A stretch of 43,853 nucleotides of DNA from Bacteroidota bacterium (GTDB lineage Bacteria; Bacteroidota; Bacteroidia; Flavobacteriales_C; GCA-002722245), in NCBI GenBank assembly GCA_026390935.1, contig JAPLEZ010000097.1, forward strand, positions 1 to 43,853. Direction: 5' to 3'. Numbering within the stretch: position 1 is the stretch's first letter; every line of letters begins with the position of its first letter. Shown piece after piece: positions 21,955-32,985 of this stretch. Below the pieces are notes generated by a model. That model saw only the letters and a list, made by a program, of their open reading frames with translations, ran no database searches and had not been told where the DNA came from. A program made the position numbers and the translations under genes.

Positions 21955-23208
21955 ATGAAAATACTGATTTGGATTTCAAGAATATTCGTCGGCGGACTCT
22001 TCATCTTTTCCGGATTGATCAAGGCGAATGACAGTGTAGGGTTTTCATATAAACTGCAGGAATATTTTGAAGTATTTGCTAGCAAAGCACAGTTTAAATT
22101 AGATATGCACAGCTCTTGGTTGCCCGACTGGCTGCTGGAGTTGTTCGTTTGGAAATTTCATTTGTTGCATGATATCGCTCTTCCTTTAGCTATGTTCATT
22201 GTTGTTTTTGAAATAGTGCTGGGTGTTTGCACCATCACTGGTACTAAAATGAAATGGGTAGCCACTTCCATGTTAGTGATGATAGTGTTTTTCACCTTTC
22301 TCACCTTCGTTTCATGGCAGTTCAAAATTGTAACAGGTTGTGGGTGTTTTGGTGATGCTATTAAATTAACGCCTTTTGAATCTTTCATTAAAGACTTGAT
22401 TTTACTGGTTTTCATTCTTGTTCTCTTCTTTTATAGAAAATCCATTTTCTCGCTTTTTGACATTGGTGGCGACAGAATGACTTTCGGGATTTCATTATTG
22501 TGTTCTACACTTTTTGTGATTTATACCTACAAACACCTACCATTCATTGATTTTCGCGCTTACGCAGTGGGCAACGATTTGAAGAAGGAAATGATTCGTG
22601 TTGATCCTATTTATGAAAACTGGTATGTCATGAAAAACGTGAAAACCGGGGAAGAGAAAAAATTCAAAGACTATCCAATGGATGCCGATACCTGGAAATA
22701 TTCTTCCTTGGATCAAGTAGTGATTAAACCGGGAATTGAACCAAAAATCACCGATTTCGTCATTTACGATGAAGAGGGAACGGATGTTCTTCAAACTGTT
22801 TTAAACGACTCGGGCTATACTTTTTTTCTGGTGATGCATGATTTAAGTGAGTTGGGAGAATTTGAAAAAGAAGGTAAAGTAGCTATTGGTTTCACACCCG
22901 ACAGCGATACTAAAGATGACTTTATACAAATCAACGAATTTGCTAAACTGGCTGAAAAAGAAGGAATGAAATTTTCGGGTTTAACAGCGTCAGGAGTAGA
23001 TTTGATAGGTTCTTTCCGCCACCAGATGCAAGCAGCTTATCCGTTTTATGGAAGTGATGGAGTGGTTTTAAAAACCATCATTCGTTCCAATCCCGGACTG
23101 ATACTATTGAAAAACGGAGTTGTGCTCGGACAATGGCATATCAACGATTTTCCCGATTTTGAAGATTTAATGGAAAAACTAAATATTAATTACGCTAAAG
23201 AGTTATGA
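21955..23208 (+). CDS. BT_3928-like DoxX / thioredoxin-fold membrane protein
   Basis: The 417-residue protein begins with a DoxX-type membrane domain of four helices (residues 1-150, including the GGLFIFSGLIKANDSVGF motif and a GCGCFGDAIKLTP loop) and continues with a soluble region resembling a thioredoxin fold (about 270-410: TFFLVMHDLSELGEFEK, then NPGLILLKNGVVLGQWHIND). The soluble part has no CxxC, so it is unlikely to be a normal thioredoxin. The GCGCFGD loop in the membrane part may supply redox cysteines, as in MauE/DoxX relatives. Its TGA overlaps the tpiA ATG. Confidence 0.85.
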   Translation: MKILIWISRIFVGGLFIFSGLIKANDSVGFSYKLQEYFEVFASKAQFKLDMHSSWLPDWLLELFVWKFHLLHDIALPLAMFIVVFEIVLGVCTITGTKMKWVATSMLVMIVFFTFLTFVSWQFKIVTGCGCFGDAIKLTPFESFIKDLILLVFILVLFFYRKSIFSLFDIGGDRMTFGISLLCSTLFVIYTYKHLPFIDFRAYAVGNDLKKEMIRVDPIYENWYVMKNVKTGEEKKFKDYPMDADTWKYSSLDQVVIKPGIEPKITDFVIYDEEGTDVLQTVLNDSGYTFFLVMHDLSELGEFEKEGKVAIGFTPDSDTKDDFIQINEFAKLAEKEGMKFSGLTASGVDLIGSFRHQMQAAYPFYGSDGVVLKTIIRSNPGLILLKNGVVLGQWHINDFPDFEDLMEKLNINYAKEL

Positions 23209-23963
23209 GAAAAAAAATTGTTGCCGGAAACTGGAAAATGAATAAAAATCTTTCCGAAGGATTAAGTTTAATTGAAGGAATTAAAAGTGGATTGAACGCA
23301 GCGCACAAAGGAGTGGACGTGATTGTTTCACCTCCTTATGTATCGTTGACCGAAGCTGTTAAAGCTGCTGCTGGAAGCGCTGTTAAAGTGGCTGCACAAA
23401 ATTGCCATCAGGAAGAAAATGGCGCCTACACTGGTGAAATTTCTATAGGAATGATCAAGGCTATTGGCGTTGAATATATCATTATTGGTCACTCTGAGCG
23501 TCGTCAGTATTTCAATGAAACGAGCGCAAGTATCGCTAAAAAAATCAACGCAACTTTAGCGAAAGGATTAACTCCTATTTATTGCAATGGTGAAGTGAAG
23601 GAAGAAAGAGAAAGCGGAAAACATTTGGAAGTTGTTAAAAGACAAATGAACGATGAGCTTTTTCACCTTTCTGCTGAAGAAGTTAAAAAAGTGGTAATTG
23701 CTTACGAACCGGTTTGGGCCATTGGAACAGGATTGACTGCTTCTCCCGATCAGGCTCAGGAAATTCATGCTTACCTACGTAAATTGTTAACAGATAAATA
23801 CGGCGCTGATGTTGCCGAAAGCATTAGCATTTTATATGGAGGAAGCTGTAAACCCGACAATGCAAAAGAAATTTTCAGCAAAAAAGATGTTGATGGTGGA
23901 TTGATTGGTGGTGCTGCTTTGAAAGCGGAAGACTTTTTGGCGATTATCGCTGCGTTTAATTAA
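23205..23963 (+). CDS. tpiA: Triose-phosphate isomerase
   Basis: The 252-residue TIM-barrel protein has GNWKMNK (catalytic Lys), the IIGHSERRQYF motif (catalytic His) and AYEPVWAIGTG (catalytic Glu, then loop 6), and ends in ILYGGSCKPDN...GGLIGGAALK. It interconverts dihydroxyacetone phosphate and glyceraldehyde 3-phosphate in glycolysis. The start overlaps the upstream stop by four bases (ATGA). A palindromic repeat begins seven bases after its stop. Confidence 0.98.
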   Translation: MRKKIVAGNWKMNKNLSEGLSLIEGIKSGLNAAHKGVDVIVSPPYVSLTEAVKAAAGSAVKVAAQNCHQEENGAYTGEISIGMIKAIGVEYIIIGHSERRQYFNETSASIAKKINATLAKGLTPIYCNGEVKEERESGKHLEVVKRQMNDELFHLSAEEVKKVVIAYEPVWAIGTGLTASPDQAQEIHAYLRKLLTDKYGADVAESISILYGGSCKPDNAKEIFSKKDVDGGLIGGAALKAEDFLAIIAAFN

Positions 23964-23969
23964 TATTTT

Positions 23970-24028
23970 CCCACAGATTTCACAGATTGACACAGAAGTT
24001 ATCTGTGAAAATCCGTGAAATCTGTGGG
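23970..24028. repeat. Palindromic repeat, copy 2 (CAGATTTCACAGATTGACACAGA family)
   Basis: CCCACAGATTTCAC and its near complement GTGAAATCTGTGGG form the arms. It shares 20 or more identical bases and orientation with the copy at 14021-14083. It fills the gap between tpiA and prmA, ending 19 bases before ATG 24048, and would provide the GTG at 24015 that extends the prmA frame, so that earlier start is rejected. Confidence 0.85.
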
Positions 24029-24047
24029 ACTCTTTTCAAAAAAAAGT

Positions 24048-24881
24048 ATGGAATACGTTGAACTCATAGTTGAATTAAAACCTGTTTCCCCTTGGTGCAA
24101 TATCCTTATGTCGGCAATGGTGGAAAATGATTACGACACCTTTGAGGAAAACGAAAAAGGATTTAAAGCTTACATCAAAAAAAAGGATTTTAACGAGGCT
24201 TACCTCAAGCAATTGTTTGCCGAATACAGCGATGTTTCTATCTCTTACACTTCATCCATCATTCCCGAAACCAACTGGAATGCCAACTGGGAAAGCTCTT
24301 TTCAACCCATTGAAATTGGCTCATGGTGTTTGGTGCGTGCGCCTTTTCACAACATAGAAAAAGCCTTTGAGGTGGAAATTGTCATTGAACCTAAAATGTC
24401 CTTCGGTACCGGTCACCATCAAACTACCATGTTAATGATGGAGGAAATGAAAAACATTGACTGGAAAGGAAAAAGGGTTTTAGACATGGGAAGTGGTACT
24501 GGAATTCTAGCTATTCTTGCTGAAAAGCTAGGGGCACGTGACCTAATTGCTATCGACAACGACGAATGGGCTTATGCCAATTGTATTGAAAATGTGGAGC
24601 GCAATGCTTGTGAAAAAATCACTACTATTTTAGGTACTGCTGCCAATATCGACGATAAAGGTTTTGATGTAATACTGGCCAACATCAACAGAAATATATT
24701 GATGGCCGATATGCCAGCTTACACCAAAGCTTTGGATTCAGGAGGTGTTATTCTGTTCAGCGGTTTTTTGGAGCAGGATGTGGAAGTGCTCAAAGAAAAA
24801 ATTGCAGCTGTTGGCTTGCTCTTTGATAAAGTAATATCTAATGCTGCAGGCAATTTTGCGTTGATCAAATGTTTTAAATAA
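24048..24881 (+). CDS. prmA: Ribosomal protein L11 methyltransferase
   Basis: From ATG 24048 (MEYVELIVEL) the protein has 277 residues. The substrate-binding N-terminal half (NWNANWESSFQPIEIGSWCLVRAP) is followed by the SAM-binding Rossmann domain: MSFGTGHHQTTMLMM, VLDMGSGTGILAILAEKLGA (motif I), IDNDEWAYANCIEN and DVILANINRNIL (NINR catalytic loop). It trimethylates L11. The 1532-residue secreted protein follows after eight bases. Confidence 0.95.
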   Translation: MEYVELIVELKPVSPWCNILMSAMVENDYDTFEENEKGFKAYIKKKDFNEAYLKQLFAEYSDVSISYTSSIIPETNWNANWESSFQPIEIGSWCLVRAPFHNIEKAFEVEIVIEPKMSFGTGHHQTTMLMMEEMKNIDWKGKRVLDMGSGTGILAILAEKLGARDLIAIDNDEWAYANCIENVERNACEKITTILGTAANIDDKGFDVILANINRNILMADMPAYTKALDSGGVILFSGFLEQDVEVLKEKIAAVGLLFDKVISNAAGNFALIKCFK

Positions 24882-24889
24882 TTCGGATT

Positions 24890-27800
24890 ATGATTAAAAA
24901 GATATTTCTTTTTGTATTGCCGCTGCTCACTTCAGTACAACTAAGCGCTCAGGCTCCGCAATTAAAATCGTTCACTCACGAAAACGAAAAATTCTTTCAG
25001 GAATTAAACGATTTCATGATGGCCGCTAATCCTGATGAAGCCGAAGCTTTGATGGCTGAGTTTTCTGCCGTGTGGCCATTTCCGCCAATGGATCCGAAGA
25101 AGGAAATTAAAATGTATAAAGTCGCCAATGAAGCTTTTCAGCGACGAATAAAGGCGCTAGAGATTCAAAGTACTTTTCAGTATTCCAACATTTCCCGAAA
25201 ATTTAGTGAATATCAGATATTAGAAATTTACGACATGTGTGATCTCATGCTCCTAAAGAGAATGAAGGCGATGCCGGATTTTAGAGATTACATAACTGCC
25301 TTACTTGGATTAATTATTAGTGACCAGGACGAAAATAGTTTTGAGGCATGGAACGGTACACTCAAAAAACTAATGGGTACCAATCGTAAAAGTTTTGGTT
25401 CGTTTTTAACTACTTCCAATAACTTGTTTTTGTACGGTTCCATTTATGTTTCTGCACCAACCAGATGGACTGGAACTTCAAAAAAATTCACCTTTGATTA
25501 CGACAGTTTGCCAAAAGTTGTGTTTCCTGAAATTATGACTTTGTATTGCGTAGCTAAACGAGATACGGCATTTATTTACGAAACAAAAGGAGTGTTTTAT
25601 CCTACCAGTAATAGGTTTTATGGAGTAGGTGGAAAAGTAAATTGGGTGCGTGCGGGAGTGGCCGAAAAATATTCATACGCCTTGCTCGATAAATATTCTA
25701 TTCGATTACAATCCTCGCATTACGAGGCGGATTCCGTTACTTATTTCAATTCTAAATACTTCGACTATGCTTTAAAAGGAAAGTTAGAAGAAAAACTCCA
25801 AGCCGATGTGGATACGAGCAATGCTGGTTATCCTCGATTTAAATCGTACAGCAAAAGAGTGAAAATCGAAAACATTTTTCCAAGCATCGATTTTGATGGT
25901 GGATTCTTTATCAAGGGCGCCAAATTCATCGGTCAGGGTACCAGCGAAGAGCGAGCGAAACTCATTTTTAAATTCAACAATGTTCCTAAGATGGAAGTTA
26001 GCTCTGAGAACTTCGCCATCAATGACGATAGGATGGTTGCTGGGGATGCGGCGATTTACATTTTCTTAAAAGACGATACTATTTTCCATCCAACACTTCA
26101 GTTCAAATACTTGAAGGAAAACAATGAAATCACTCTTTATCGCGATAAAAAAGGATTGTCGCTATCACCATATTACGACTCCTACCATGATGTGGATATT
26201 GACGTGGAGTGGATGCGTTGGAAAATTACCGAGCCCGAAATTCAAATGAGTGCTATCATTGGTTCCAGTACGCATGAGATGCATTTAGAATCGTCGAATT
26301 ATTACGATGAAGAAAAGTTTATGGCGCTGCAAGGCATGGGAGAGCAGCATCCATTATATACTGTAAAACGATATGTGGATACCCGCAACAACAAAAACAA
26401 TGTGTTTTATTTTGATGGTTTTTCGGATTATGTGCACATGGAAAACAGTGATGTTCAAATCATGCTCATCAATTTAGCTACTTCGGGATTTGTGATTTAC
26501 GATGTGGCCGCTGGAAAAATCACCGTGCAGCCGCGCTTGTACCATTACTTATATGCTAAATCGAAAAAAGCCGATTACGACAATATTTCTATTCATTCCG
26601 ATATTGCTGAAAAACCAAATGCTACTTTGAATTTACTCGACAATGATATGCTGGTTCGTGGAGTTGGAAAAGTGGTGTTAAGTGCCAGTCGGAAAGTATT
26701 TATCTACCCATCCCATGGCGAGCTTGTGTTGCACGCCAACAGAGACATCACTTTTGGTGGCGCTGTAAAAGCGGGGATGATGGAATGTTTTGGGAAAAAC
26801 TTCGATTTCAAATACGACGACTTTAAAATTGATATTGTGAATGCCGATTCCATTAGGATTTTCGCTCCGCATAAAACCTTGGATGAGGCCACCGGACAAG
26901 TCATTATGGAAAGAGTGAAAAGTACTATTGAGCACGTGAATGGTGACATCATCATTGATAAATCAAATAACAAATCGGGCGTGCGAGTTGATTCTTTTCC
27001 TCAATATCCTATCTTCAATAGTACCACTGATTCCTATGTTTACTTCGACAAAAGAAATGAATTGGGAAGTGTGTACGACAGGTCGAAGGTGTTTTTCCAT
27101 TTGTTGCCTTTTACCCTTGACAGTATCAGCACACTTACCCGCGAAGGAATTGAGTTTAAAGGAACTTTTGCATCGGGTGGAATTTTTCCCGACTTTGAGG
27201 AGACCCTAAAAGTAATGGATGATCATTCATTAGGATTTACCCATCCTGCGCCAAAAGACGGTGTGCCCGTTTACGGTGGAAAAGCTACTTATTATATGGA
27301 CATCAATGTTAGTAATAGAGGTATTAGAGGGGATGGTAAACTGGATTATTTAACATCAACTACCTTCTCAAAAGATTTCGTTTTCTATGTGGATTCAGTG
27401 AACGCTGTGGCTCAATCCTTCGAGATTCGTGAGCAAAAAGAAGGTGTTGAATATCCTTCGGCAAAAGGTGAAAACGACCGCTTCCATTTTGAACCTTATA
27501 AAGACAAATTGCTGGCAAGTAAAATTGATAAGCCGTTGGATATGTATGGCGGTCAGGCTAAATTAAATGGTACTTTGATTTATGGTCCTGAAAAATTAGG
27601 GGGATATGGATTGGTGGATTTTGAAAACGCAGAACTCAAATCGGGTGATTTTAATTTCAAGAATCGAATTTTTATGGCCGATACTTCCGACTTTAAATTG
27701 AAATCGGCAGAGTCCAACGATGGCGGAATTGCCTTCGCTACTAAAAATGTGAAGTCGAAAATTGATTTTGATAAAAGAGAAGGGGAGTTTGTTGCCAATG

Positions 27801-29488
27801 GTGGCGCGTCTTTCGTGGATTTTCCAGTGAACCAATATGTTTGTTACATGGACCAATTCAAATGGTTTATGGACAAGTTTGAATTGGAATTAAGTACAAG
27901 TAAGGGCGAAGCTAAATCTGCTGAAGGATCTGCCGGCGCTAACGATTTAGACCTCTCGGGATCGGAATTTATATCTACCCATCCGAAGCAGGATTCCCTA
28001 AAATTCATTTCTCCTAAAGCTAATTTCGATATCCGTAATTATGTGATTAAGGCCCACGATGTGAAATACATTAATGTTGCCGATGCTCGAATTTTCCCCA
28101 TTGACGGAGAGGTGCTCGTTGAAAGAGCCGCTAAAATGCGCTCCTTGGATTCGGCGAAAATTGTTGCCAATAATTTAACGCAATACCATACTATTATCAA
28201 TGCTCATGTTGATATTTCTGCCCGAAGGGATTATGCTGCATCGGGTGATTACGACTATGAAGATGCGGAAGGTGGAAAACAAAAAATACACTTCGCCAAT
28301 ATTCGAGTTGACACCACTTATCAAACTGTTGCCAGTGGTTTGATTGAAGAAACACAACTCTTTAAATTGAGTCCGCAATTTATGTATAAAGGTCGCGCTA
28401 GTATCGCCGCCAATAAAAAAGGGATTTTGTTTGAAGGAGGAACCAAACTTAAACACGATTGTAAAATTGATAAACCATGGATCGCCTTTAAAAGTGAAAT
28501 TGATCCTGCCAACGTGATGATCCCTATTGATACTGTTGCCAATGTTTATGGCGACAATCGTACGCGCTTGCTCAACGGATTTAACATAACTACTGACTCC
28601 ACCGGTGTGTATCCTACTTTCCTTTCTCTTAAAAAGGTGTACAGCGATGATGTGTTGATTACATCTTCTGGCTTCCTTAAATACGATAGTGAAACCAAGG
28701 AATATCAAATTTCAAATAAGGAAAAATTGCGTGAGCGTAACTTCTCTGGAAATTACATGAGCATGAATACCGAAACCTGTAAAGCTGAGGCTGAAGGTAA
28801 AATGCAATTGGCTTTTAAAAGCGGACAAGTGAATGTTGGTTTTGCTGGAAATATCCTTCAAAATTCTCCTGAAGATACCGCTCATATTGAGGGCATCATG
28901 ACACTCGATTTTAAACTGGATGATGCCATGTGGAAACACATGATTGGCAATATTGAAGGAAATCCTTCTCTGTACGCCGTGAACAATAACCGTCAAGTTT
29001 ATGAGCGTGCCTTGAGAGACCTCGTAGGTAAAGAAAAAGGTGATAAATTGATTTCAGACTTGTCCCTTTACAATGCTTTCAAACGCTTTCCCGACGAGTT
29101 GAAGCACAATTTGGTATTGAGCGATTTGGAGTTCGTGTGGAACAAAGAAAAAAGTAGTTTTGTATCGGAAGGTAGAATTGGAATTGGTTCCATGGACGAC
29201 AAACAACTGAATAAATATGTGGAAGGTTATGTACAAATTTCCCGAAAACGAACGGGCGAGGAAATCAATATTTACTTAAAAATTGATGCCAACACCTGGT
29301 ACTTCTTCACCTATTCAAAAGGAGTTATGGCTTGTCTTTCTTCAGCCGAACCTTTCAATGCTATTATCAATTCCCTTAAACCAGATAAAAAAGAATTCAA
29401 AGGAACAAAGGACCAGGATCCATACACTTTCATGCTCTCAACTGATAGAAAATTGAAGTTGTTTTTAATGAAGATGGAAGGGGAATAA
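24890..29488 (+). CDS. Giant secreted protein of unknown function (1532 residues)
   Basis: The product has a signal peptide (MIKKIFLFVLPLLTSVQLSAQ), a helical N-terminal region of about 150 residues (repeated ELND/EALMAEF segments and a MDPKKEIKMYKVANEAFQRR helix), then more than 1300 residues that are strongly beta-patterned, with many short strands and turns and no membrane helix after the signal. Recurrent segments such as LNGTLIYGPEKLGGYGLVDF and GGASFVDFPVNQYVCYMD recall the stacked strands of OstA/LptA-, AsmA- or TamB-like proteins, but no motif proves it. No catalytic or sorting-domain signature was found. It lies eight bases after prmA and 18 before a barrel/barrel/lipoprotein group. 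I recognise it only as a Bacteroidota-type conserved hypothetical; a periplasmic scaffold or lipid/glycan conduit is a guess. Confidence 0.8.
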   Translation: MIKKIFLFVLPLLTSVQLSAQAPQLKSFTHENEKFFQELNDFMMAANPDEAEALMAEFSAVWPFPPMDPKKEIKMYKVANEAFQRRIKALEIQSTFQYSNISRKFSEYQILEIYDMCDLMLLKRMKAMPDFRDYITALLGLIISDQDENSFEAWNGTLKKLMGTNRKSFGSFLTTSNNLFLYGSIYVSAPTRWTGTSKKFTFDYDSLPKVVFPEIMTLYCVAKRDTAFIYETKGVFYPTSNRFYGVGGKVNWVRAGVAEKYSYALLDKYSIRLQSSHYEADSVTYFNSKYFDYALKGKLEEKLQADVDTSNAGYPRFKSYSKRVKIENIFPSIDFDGGFFIKGAKFIGQGTSEERAKLIFKFNNVPKMEVSSENFAINDDRMVAGDAAIYIFLKDDTIFHPTLQFKYLKENNEITLYRDKKGLSLSPYYDSYHDVDIDVEWMRWKITEPEIQMSAIIGSSTHEMHLESSNYYDEEKFMALQGMGEQHPLYTVKRYVDTRNNKNNVFYFDGFSDYVHMENSDVQIMLINLATSGFVIYDVAAGKITVQPRLYHYLYAKSKKADYDNISIHSDIAEKPNATLNLLDNDMLVRGVGKVVLSASRKVFIYPSHGELVLHANRDITFGGAVKAGMMECFGKNFDFKYDDFKIDIVNADSIRIFAPHKTLDEATGQVIMERVKSTIEHVNGDIIIDKSNNKSGVRVDSFPQYPIFNSTTDSYVYFDKRNELGSVYDRSKVFFHLLPFTLDSISTLTREGIEFKGTFASGGIFPDFEETLKVMDDHSLGFTHPAPKDGVPVYGGKATYYMDINVSNRGIRGDGKLDYLTSTTFSKDFVFYVDSVNAVAQSFEIREQKEGVEYPSAKGENDRFHFEPYKDKLLASKIDKPLDMYGGQAKLNGTLIYGPEKLGGYGLVDFENAELKSGDFNFKNRIFMADTSDFKLKSAESNDGGIAFATKNVKSKIDFDKREGEFVANGGASFVDFPVNQYVCYMDQFKWFMDKFELELSTSKGEAKSAEGSAGANDLDLSGSEFISTHPKQDSLKFISPKANFDIRNYVIKAHDVKYINVADARIFPIDGEVLVERAAKMRSLDSAKIVANNLTQYHTIINAHVDISARRDYAASGDYDYEDAEGGKQKIHFANIRVDTTYQTVASGLIEETQLFKLSPQFMYKGRASIAANKKGILFEGGTKLKHDCKIDKPWIAFKSEIDPANVMIPIDTVANVYGDNRTRLLNGFNITTDSTGVYPTFLSLKKVYSDDVLITSSGFLKYDSETKEYQISNKEKLRERNFSGNYMSMNTETCKAEAEGKMQLAFKSGQVNVGFAGNILQNSPEDTAHIEGIMTLDFKLDDAMWKHMIGNIEGNPSLYAVNNNRQVYERALRDLVGKEKGDKLISDLSLYNAFKRFPDELKHNLVLSDLEFVWNKEKSSFVSEGRIGIGSMDDKQLNKYVEGYVQISRKRTGEEINIYLKIDANTWYFFTYSKGVMACLSSAEPFNAIINSLKPDKKEFKGTKDQDPYTFMLSTDRKLKLFLMKMEGE

Positions 29489-29506
29489 AAAGTGAAATGT
29501 GATATT

Positions 29507-30211
29507 ATGAAATATAACTTATTGATGGGGGCCATGTTTTTTGGTATGGTGCTTCCATTATGCATAAAAGCTCAAACAACCATCTATATCGGAGAAGGTG
29601 TGGGCTCCTATAAATATTATTCAGGCTCTCTAGCAACCAGGGCTTTTGAATTCAATAACAATACGGATGTGACCAAAGAAATGAATCCGGATAGAATTTT
29701 CAGTGGAGCAACATTTGGATTTAATGTGAATTTGGCCCTAGTTTCATTCGGTTTAGATTATGCATTCAAATACAATAATTTTTCTGGTAAAAGAGAATTG
29801 GGAGCCAATGTTACGACTGATGCAATAACACAAAGTTTAAATTCATTTTATGTCAATTTTGGGCTCGGAAACAATATTGATTACAGAGATCAGGCTGATG
29901 GAAATGATAAGAAAATAGTTTGGCGTATTCAAACAGGAGTGGGGATGTATTCTTTTAAATTGAAACAGAATTTGGTAAGTCCCACCGAAAATTTTAGTGG
30001 AATATTGGGATCACGTACTGGTATTTCTTGCAGAAGTGGTATTAATGTTTGGATTCCTATTTATAAGAAATTTGAATTAAGTATTATGCCATATTATGAG
30101 TTTGATACAGGAGGTGGATATGTAGAACTACTGGAAGACAAAATAAAAAATTCAGAATATTTCAACATCACTCATTTCGGTTTAAATCTAAATTTGAACT
30201 ATGCTTTTTAA
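29507..30211 (+). CDS. Predicted outer-membrane beta-barrel protein A
   Basis: ATG 29507 (MKYNLLMGAMFFGMVLPLCIKAQ) gives a clear signal peptide; the GTG at 29492 merely extends it. The 234-residue mature region has alternating strands, e.g. FGFNVNLALVSFGLDYAF, and a C-terminal strand pattern ending in an aromatic (FGLNLNLNYAF), the typical outer-membrane barrel end. No family is recognised. Its last 11 bases overlap the next ORF. Confidence 0.65.
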   Translation: MKYNLLMGAMFFGMVLPLCIKAQTTIYIGEGVGSYKYYSGSLATRAFEFNNNTDVTKEMNPDRIFSGATFGFNVNLALVSFGLDYAFKYNNFSGKRELGANVTTDAITQSLNSFYVNFGLGNNIDYRDQADGNDKKIVWRIQTGVGMYSFKLKQNLVSPTENFSGILGSRTGISCRSGINVWIPIYKKFELSIMPYYEFDTGGGYVELLEDKIKNSEYFNITHFGLNLNLNYAF

Positions 30212-30974
30212 CAAAACGATACTTGCCTTATTTTTCCTTGGGATGACTCATGTTGCTTACTCTCAGGAAGAAGATAATATAAAGCACAGCGCTTATTTTA
30301 GATACGCTGCAATTGACAATTTTCAATTTGCAGATTGGGATACTTACATTGAAAAATACAATACTGAAAATAATCCAGTTGAAAAATTAGGTGACTTTAA
30401 ACAGACTTTTAATTTTGATATTGGCTACAGATTTGAATACAATAAAATATACAGTAGTTTATCTTATCAGCACTATCACGGAGTGGCAAGCGCCTCCTAT
30501 TTGTACGGTGAAAAAAGACAGTTTGACGTTACGGCGAATTCCGTTTCCTGGGGCTTTGGATACAATTTAATAAACCCTGACAAGAAATTCTATTTAGCAC
30601 CATTCATTAATATTAGATTTGGCGACAAAGTACGCGTTTTATCTAGCGCCATTTATCCTGATGGTTTTCACAGTGTGGGCAGTGATAAACCATTAAACGG
30701 AACTTTTCTAGGTTCAGGATTGTTGGGTGAAGAACTTGGAGTTTTATTGAAATACAAGGTGAATTCCAAGTTTGCAGTTGAAGTGGACGCCTCTAAAATG
30801 TGGGCCAACTTAGTAGCTCCAGCTTCATTGGATGATGGGAGTGTTTACAAAGCGTTTTCTGGCGGTGGCGGAATATCAAGTTTAGAAATTACTGAAACAA
30901 TGTCGGCTGTAAGATTAATGGTAGGACTTTCATATACTTTTTCAGATATACAAAATTCAACATGGTGGCAATAA
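30201..30974 (+). CDS. Predicted outer-membrane beta-barrel protein B
   Basis: The 257-residue protein opens with a signal peptide (MLFNKTILALFFLGMTHVAYSQ), followed by beta-rich segments including FNFDIGYRFEYNKIYSSLSY and a final VRLMVGLSYTFSD strand. The start overlaps the end of the preceding gene by 11 bases and its own end overlaps the following lipoprotein gene by 13, so the three are probably co-translated. No family is recognised. Confidence 0.65.
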   Translation: MLFNKTILALFFLGMTHVAYSQEEDNIKHSAYFRYAAIDNFQFADWDTYIEKYNTENNPVEKLGDFKQTFNFDIGYRFEYNKIYSSLSYQHYHGVASASYLYGEKRQFDVTANSVSWGFGYNLINPDKKFYLAPFINIRFGDKVRVLSSAIYPDGFHSVGSDKPLNGTFLGSGLLGEELGVLLKYKVNSKFAVEVDASKMWANLVAPASLDDGSVYKAFSGGGGISSLEITETMSAVRLMVGLSYTFSDIQNSTWWQ

Positions 30975-31456
30975 AATATAGTGTATTAGCAATGATGATA
31001 CTTGTACTATCATCGTGCTCCAAAAAAGCAACTTTATATGAAAATTACTGGGAAACAATTGAGTCGGGTGCCTACGTTTTTATTGATGCTAAAGTTTTAA
31101 CTTACAACAATGGTGTGCTGATTTCGGATTCAGCAATAGATGTAGGTGATTCTTATATTCTGCTATACACCGAACCTGTGCTGTCGGACGGATTTTTTAA
31201 TCAATTGAAAAGATATGGCGATTGGGAATCTCCATTCTTTAATAATTTGGGGGGAATCAAAGCATGGAACATGGAAAACGATGATCAAAGACTTACCTTT
31301 TCTGTGGAAGATTTTTCAGGTACTTACATACCTCAATCAACCATTACGATAGAAGATGTTGGGGAGAAAAAACAAACCTGGCATTATGTTAAAAGCGCAC
31401 CGGGAACTTATATTCATTATATCGTTACGATGGAAAGAACGAATGCGCCTAAATAA
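30962..31456 (+). CDS. Predicted lipoprotein, unknown function
   Basis: The 164-residue protein has a signal peptide ending in a lipobox, MMILVLSSC, with the lipidated Cys at about residue 19. The mature part is mostly beta and carries ENYWETIESGAYVFIDA and TFSVEDFSGTYIPQS segments without a known motif. It is third in the overlapping barrel/barrel/lipoprotein set and ends 14 bases before the convergent LptA-like gene. Confidence 0.7.
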   Translation: MVAIKYSVLAMMILVLSSCSKKATLYENYWETIESGAYVFIDAKVLTYNNGVLISDSAIDVGDSYILLYTEPVLSDGFFNQLKRYGDWESPFFNNLGGIKAWNMENDDQRLTFSVEDFSGTYIPQSTITIEDVGEKKQTWHYVKSAPGTYIHYIVTMERTNAPK

Positions 31457-31470
31457 TTAAGGACCATTCC

Positions 31471-32985
31471 TCACTCAAACAAACCTTCCTTCGTCTTTGG
31501 TTTTTCCTTTTCTCTCCATCTGAAATTTTCTAGTTTCAGTTTTGCAACATCCACTTTTTCTATAGGATGGAAAACGGCATTTGGTTTCACAAAGAATTTG
31601 ATTTTCCCAACCTTTCCCTCTTTAAAGGTAATCATGAGATTACTGCAATCGGCTTGATTTGCGCCAACATAAGAGCCGTCGCTTTCTTTTACAAAATAAA
31701 GGGTTTGGCCGTTTCCGGTCACCTTCATTTTTTTCATTTTTCCATCACTGAAATAACCAATCATGTCGCGTCCTTTGATTTGGTCGTAGGTATCCGGACC
31801 GTTATTGGAAATGATAAAGCCGTTTTTGTGGATGCGCAGTTCTCGGATTTTATTTCCGTATATAAAGAGTTCAATGTATTCACCTGTGATTTGACTCTCT
31901 CCCGACCAGATCACCGGATCTCGGTAGAGGCGGATGAGAGAATCAGTTGGGAAAAAAGTCATGGAGTCACAACTTCCTTGTAAGTCCTTCTTTAAAAATC
32001 GAACATTGTAATAAGCGTAAATTTTTCGTTCTTTTTTAAGCGTATCGTTCACCGCTTTCAGCGTGTCGGCGTGCAGAAATAAAGTGTCATTATCGATCAA
32101 CTGCTCCAACACCGCTCTTTCCGTCATTATGCTTTTATTCGATTTCTCATAAAAAATACCGTGGTTTCCTGTAATAGAAATGTGCTCTACTGTATCAACA
32201 GCGCGAACATTATTGTATGCATCAGTAATGGAAGTCTTGCTGTTTCGGTGGATGGAATCGGCATAAATGATTTGTGATTTCTCAGTAATCTTCGCATTCT
32301 TTTTGAAAACAGATTCCTTTTTCAATTCATCAAAATAACCTGCTTCACAATATATTTTTCCTGATTTGGAAATGATATTAGTTGGACCATTAAAAGTGGT
32401 TCGTTGAGTTGGCGTGTGATAGGTGAGAGTGTCGGAAACAATACTGAAATCAGCTGTTTTCACTACAACGTTTTTTTTGAAATTGATGACTTTGTTGGAA
32501 GTGTTGTAATAGCCTTTCTTGCTGTAAATTTTAGTGTTTTCGGTTTTTATGTTTGCTCCTTCTAAATAGTAGGCATTGTTTTTTTCATTTTCATAATAGA
32601 GCTGATCCGTTTCAATAACGGTTTTGTCGCTGATCATACGCACATTGCCCGTGAAGATGGTGAGTTTTTTTTCACCATAATATTTCATTACATCGCAATA
32701 GGTTTTTACGGAATCTTTTTTATTCATAAAAACCCTGCCGTAGCTAAAGAAATCGCCATTGTCATAAACGAAAGAGCTGTCGCAGGCCAGTAGAACATTT
32801 CCTTGTTTGAGTCGGACATGCCCCACTAATTTTTGTTCGCCAGGTCGCGTGGATTCCAGATAATCAGCGGACAGAATTTCAACGTATTCTTTTTTGTTGC
32901 TCAAAAACATGCCGCTTTGAGCCTTTAGAAAAGACGATGAAATCAAAAAGATAAAAAATGACGAAAGTGCTATTTTAAACTTCAT
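31471..32985 (-). CDS. OstA/LptA-like periplasmic protein
   Basis: The 504-residue protein has a signal peptide (MKFKIALSSFFIFLISSSFLKAQ) and an N-terminal OstA/LptA-like region (about 30-250) of repeated short strands: VEILSADYLESTRPGEQKLV, then GNVRMISDKTVIETDQLYY, LEGANIKTENTKIYSKKGYY and FNGPTNIISKSGKIYCE. LptA and LptD N-terminal domains form this beta-jellyroll to pass LPS from inner to outer membrane. The C-terminal half continues the pattern (GEYIELFIYGNKIRELRIHK) and has a basic end. Length and the lack of an LptD barrel suggest a longer LptA-type bridge. It is the last gene of the fur-purA group, 22 bases after purA. Confidence 0.8.
   Translation of the reverse strand: MKFKIALSSFFIFLISSSFLKAQSGMFLSNKKEYVEILSADYLESTRPGEQKLVGHVRLKQGNVLLACDSSFVYDNGDFFSYGRVFMNKKDSVKTYCDVMKYYGEKKLTIFTGNVRMISDKTVIETDQLYYENEKNNAYYLEGANIKTENTKIYSKKGYYNTSNKVINFKKNVVVKTADFSIVSDTLTYHTPTQRTTFNGPTNIISKSGKIYCEAGYFDELKKESVFKKNAKITEKSQIIYADSIHRNSKTSITDAYNNVRAVDTVEHISITGNHGIFYEKSNKSIMTERAVLEQLIDNDTLFLHADTLKAVNDTLKKERKIYAYYNVRFLKKDLQGSCDSMTFFPTDSLIRLYRDPVIWSGESQITGEYIELFIYGNKIRELRIHKNGFIISNNGPDTYDQIKGRDMIGYFSDGKMKKMKVTGNGQTLYFVKESDGSYVGANQADCSNLMITFKEGKVGKIKFFVKPNAVFHPIEKVDVAKLKLENFRWREKEKPKTKEGLFE

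Follow-up and report, generated by a model that had tools for sequence, protein, structure and literature searches.

What is the 1,532-residue protein encoded at 24890..29488 on the plus strand of this contig, and does it act together with the genes that follow it? The window, by which we mean the whole 43,853-nucleotide stretch that was analysed, holds three further genes directly downstream on the same strand. The first starts with an ATG 18 bases past the stop codon of the giant gene (29507..30211), the second overlaps the first by 11 bases (30201..30974), and the third overlaps the second by 13 bases (30962..31456). The first-pass annotation, whose four reading frames, gap and overlaps agree with the coordinates, had read these genes as one envelope locus, a giant protein that might bridge the periplasm together with two barrels and a lipoprotein.

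The giant protein begins with an export signal (residues 1–21; 24890..24952, +; MIKKIFLFVLPLLTSVQLSAQ) which reads as cleavable and carries no lipobox, and a lipobox-like start was found in none of 80 relatives. The earlier statement that it has no recognised domain holds in searches of Pfam (E up to 5), NCBIfam, PHROGs and PDB sequences, with no sequence match to PF03968, PF13100 or PF06835 and no NCBIfam match at E 1 to a type IX secretion C-terminal sorting domain. A profile of 28 relatives found no credible relative among PDB sequences, and scanning the same 28 proteins against Pfam gave scattered weak matches only. A plasmid search likewise gave no match, and no account of the family was found in the open-access literature on prmA/tpiA/plsY clusters and on Bacteroidota jellyroll proteins.

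Of 100 Bacteroidia genomes drawn as a sample of relatives, mostly one per family, 87 encode the giant, nearly always in single copy and mostly at full length. Their identity to the window protein ranges from 24 to 89%, and the length stays at ∼1,500 residues in most members. A profile scan of the contig collection, made with a 15-sequence alignment since the 28-sequence alignment had no sufficiently conserved stretch, confirmed the giant in 530 stretches. One genome (G034) carries two copies in tandem, of 1,549 and 1,566 residues (L078:6200-15546). In an even draw across the phylum Bacteroidota the profile finds the giant in only 12 of 296 genomes, and most of the genomes listed as lacking it belong to a small number of families that were drawn repeatedly. 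Taken with the 87 of 100, this uneven result indicates that the giant is common across many Bacteroidia families and missing from some species-rich ones. It is thus an undescribed, widespread family with no Pfam or NCBIfam entry, and its conservation indicates that the reading frame is a real gene.

The gene order conserved around the giant is tpiA–prmA–giant–plsY, without the barrels. In a survey of 80 named loci, prmA lies immediately upstream in 60 of 76 and plsY immediately downstream in 45 of 75; the same picture was seen in 40 further neighbourhoods, the genomes of which partly overlap those of the survey. In the window, prmA occupies 24015..24881 (+), directly upstream, and tpiA 23205..23963 (+). 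Farther upstream of the giant come tpiA, a MauE/DoxX-like gene and a DUF1599 gene. As plsY, prmA and tpiA are housekeeping genes, this context gives only a weak hint of function. A second giant protein, of up to ∼2,300 residues, which has PD40 repeats and matches SPOR weakly, sits downstream of the giant and plsY in ∼30 of the 80 surveyed loci (for instance L090:13171-18933), often followed by clpS. In ∼19 loci this protein was the longest open reading frame, and these rows were removed before folding.

Two overlapping AlphaFold models of the giant were made from 53-sequence alignments, one of residues 20–1000 (pLDDT 89.7, pTM 0.67) and one of residues 580–1532 (pLDDT 88.0, pTM 0.52). The first shows a predicted seven-helix N-terminal domain (residues ∼31–183; 24980..25438, +), followed by an extended β region that the models, the strand count and the strand alternation place at residues 184–1340 (25439..28909, +). 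The second ends in a predicted α/β domain (residues 1345–1532; 28922..29485, +). Fold prediction, proposed in the first-pass annotation as a check, returned an extended β-jellyroll of the Lpt type at pLDDT 88–90. In structural alignments with VIA-align, Lpt jellyrolls rank top in both halves of the protein. Module 1 (residues 317–585; 25838..26644, +) matches LptD, LptC and LptA at Z 8–11 (LptD 11.2, LptC 10.5, LptA 10.5; rmsd ∼3 over 120–145 residues), a second jellyroll-like stretch (residues 587–778; 26648..27223, +) matches the N-terminal domain of LptD (Z 9.4, rmsd 4.2, 142 residues), and module 3 (residues 845–1087; 27422..28150, +), which appears to duplicate module 1, matches LptC (Z 11.8, rmsd 2.5, 131 residues). 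At all three places the matches come from many independent entries of LptA, LptH, LptC and LptD, at Z 8–12 and rmsd mostly 2.4–4.5. Foldseek gave the models a probability of 0.99–1.00 to LptH and LptC; its whole-chain alignments to LptD had low E-values but an rmsd near 40 Å, and were not used.

Module 1 is split by a winged-helix-like insert (residues 471–560; 26300..26569, +), which VIA-align matches to MarR-type folds at Z ∼7. A domain of this kind, usually cytoplasmic and DNA-binding, is here predicted within an exported protein; weak Pfam matches to Fe_dep_repress were seen in 2 of the 28 relatives. A 26-strand C-terminal barrel, as in LptD, does not appear in the models, where the last 190 residues are predicted to be α/β with about six long strands. 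On the predicted models, then, the giant has the twisted β-jellyroll fold of the OstA-type Lpt proteins.

The sequence profile was also examined for internal repeats, by comparing 170-residue slices of the giant family profile with one another. Slices 788–849 and 879–940 pair at E 6e-9, and slices ∼575–630 and 1042–1090 at E 4e-7, where the best of 144 control comparisons with reversed slices reached E 2.4e-5. A weaker pairing of 320–457 with 886–1003 (E 2.5e-5) is no better than that control; it falls in register with the pairing of 575–630 and 1042–1090 once the ∼90-residue insert is removed. The sequence profile therefore shows internally duplicated modules, and these are the ones whose models match LptC and LptD. 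The β region contains ∼94 strands, close to six LptA units; divided between two sheets, with 0.48 nm for each strand, these would give a length of ∼22 nm. This is on the order of the width of the periplasm. Hydrophobic/polar alternation in the strands is 0.432, compared with 0.316 in shuffles (0 of 1000 shuffles reach the observed value), which fits a groove, although a closed two-layer β-sandwich without lipid would show alternation too.

Together, the six-unit strand count, the length of ∼22 nm and the alternation make a soluble, lipid-shielding rod the best-supported mechanism. The reading to which we give about even weight is that the giant corresponds to an LptA filament made as a single chain and serves as a lipid-carrying bridge in the periplasm, its fold being predicted and its transport role inferred. 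The LptA-type jellyroll has 16 strands in a V shape with a hydrophobic groove, and such units form a rod by stacking at their ends (PMC6164715). The giant would be exported and soluble in the periplasm, with about six LptA units of strands as tandem Lpt-type jellyrolls in one chain, and its helical N-terminal and α/β C-terminal domains would cap the rod as terminal docking domains. A hydrophobic groove along the rod would shield acyl chains and guide lipid across the periplasm, in the manner of LptA filaments or AsmA-like rods, and the protein would span both membranes. The cargo may be a glycerophospholipid, plsY being the usual next gene. A continuous groove is more than the models can show at a pTM of only 0.52–0.67; in this reading the groove would be continuous, it would carry lipid, and the ends of the rod would contact the membranes. 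The bridge suggested in the first-pass annotation is now plausible because the predicted fold is an extended jellyroll of the Lpt bridge type. The proposed principle, lipid sliding along a β-lined groove, is shared with the eukaryotic repeating β-groove bridges VPS13 and ATG2, by analogy only, as the fold unit of the giant differs.

The same fold could serve without lipid. The giant might be a rigid periplasmic rod or scaffold, one that spaces the envelope, helps to assemble outer-membrane proteins or acts in secretion, and its helical and winged-helix parts, as modelled, would suit protein binding. The extended single-layer sheet of OspA does match the giant model weakly (Z 4–5.5). However, the best and most consistent matches are to proteins with a lipid groove, at Z 8–12, with OspA and most others clearly lower. 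We therefore consider a lipid-free scaffold unlikely, whilst still giving it appreciable weight.

Less probable still is a place for the giant within the LPS route, as an additional LptA/LptC segment, or a substitute for one, that would deliver LPS or a different surface glycolipid to LptD. The predicted fold is the same as that of LptA, LptC and LptD, and in this genome and one congener an lptA gene lies convergent next to the giant. In the window this OstA/LptA-like gene, correctly placed by the first-pass annotation at the end of the locus, runs from 31471 to 32985 on the minus strand (Pfam PF13100, E 1.5e-31) and is the only OstA_2 match in the genome. Against this reading, 56 of 60 relatives have an ordinary OstA/LptA gene, with or without the giant, and mostly off the giant's contig; lptA adjoins the giant only in the window and that one congener, and elsewhere usually lies on another contig. 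The linkage of lptA and the giant is thus lacking in most relatives, and in most genomes the giant is not linked to lpt genes. Nor does the giant show profile similarity to the OstA/LptA family: the comparison with the local family profile stayed at the level of a reversed control (E 0.27), so that what the giant shares with the Lpt proteins is the predicted fold. The likeness to LptA, LptC and the LptD N-terminal domain accordingly lies in the modelled fold of the three stretches, in export, in the alternating strands and in a tandem layout reminiscent of the LptA filament. The Lpt proteins are separate subunits, whereas the giant is one chain of 1,532 residues with additional helical, winged-helix and C-terminal domains and no detectable sequence relation to them.

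The giant is very unlikely to be a divergent member of the TamB/AsmA-like proteins. The AsmA-like proteins (TamB, YhdP, YdbH) are likewise very long, β-rich periplasmic rods and candidate lipid bridges of similar length, and AsmA-like rods are known as bacterial phospholipid bridges (PMC12045153). However, Pfam gives no TamB or AsmA match to the giant even at E 5, the same genome encodes a separate TamB of ∼1,500 residues, and the giant has a cleavable-looking signal, with no apparent inner-membrane anchor, where such an anchor would be expected. Its structure matches go to the Lpt jellyrolls; AsmA-like structures, with their β-taco fold, do not appear in its PDB structural match lists, an absence which does not in itself exclude them.

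We return to the three genes that follow the giant. The first two (240–260 residues) are predicted to encode small barrels, judged from signal peptides, β-rich sequence and a sub-threshold OMP_b-brl_2 similarity in relatives; the third encodes a lipoprotein with the lipobox LSSC. Pfam gave no family match for the members tested. Relatives of the lipoprotein carry a GxW-type motif after the lipobox, so that their start looks lipocalin-like, and Pfam gave no match backing this likeness. Single-sequence searches of 60 genomes of relatives, four congeners among them, detected none of the three proteins outside the genome to which the window belongs. DNA of the closest congener matches the window up to the giant stop (29480) and resumes at the lptA stop (31473), with genes for an ABC ATPase and for a membrane protein where the window has the trio. 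The slot at 29489–31472 appears as a variable spot, with a G+C content of 0.34–0.36 compared with 0.39 for the window.

A wider search found relatives of the second barrel in two other families, in the same overlapping three-gene order at an unrelated location. With a profile of this barrel, 18 loci were detected in 17 of 395 genomes of the class. All three genes occur in order in 13 of the 18 (profile, E below 0.01), the lipoprotein follows the second barrel in 16 of 18, and outside the loci used to build the profiles the order is complete in 10 of 15. The trio (29507–31456 in the window; L214:6159-8156, L215:5653-7577 and L216–L233) thus recurs, in unrelated places, in at least 10 loci beyond the window and the two profile-building loci. 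Relatives in other families keep this order, which indicates that the three are real genes. Within the flanks examined, the giant, prmA, tpiA, plsY and lptA are near the trio in none of the 17 loci beyond the window, and no genome other than the window's own was seen in which the trio follows the giant. The trio is therefore a conserved unit, scattered in Bacteroidia and separate from the giant; the earlier view of barrels and lipoprotein as a unit survives in their order, which is conserved elsewhere, and fails in their tie to the giant.

That all four genes form one envelope machine is hardly credible, their adjacency on one strand in this genome, with the 18-base gap and the overlaps, being outweighed by the absence of the trio from the four congeners and 55 other relatives (single-sequence search), by the ABC ATPase and membrane protein lying exactly between giant and lptA in the closest congener, and by trios elsewhere that adjoin no giant. 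The neighbourhood survey, set beforehand as the check on this locus, found that the four genes do not co-occur: the giant is without the trio in every other genome seen, and the trio is without an adjoining giant in the 17 other loci.

What remains is the giant itself as a putative lipid bridge. Since the genome has its own TamB and its own LptA, the giant would add a third system to these two. It is no lipid route universal to the phylum, since many Bacteroidota families lack it. We suggest, more tentatively, that it may be a one-polypeptide bridge of joined Lpt jellyrolls that transfers phospholipid, or lipids specific to Bacteroidota, between inner and outer membrane alongside the Lpt and TamB routes, with no detectable sequence relation to either. 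In F. johnsoniae, the lipid composition of the outer membrane was not substantially altered when TamL, which partners TamB, was depleted (PMC12045153). The giant, a conserved protein of ∼1,500 residues with the predicted Lpt jellyroll fold in one chain and a gene usually followed by plsY, offers itself directly as a candidate for an additional bridge by which lipids could reach the Bacteroidota outer membrane.
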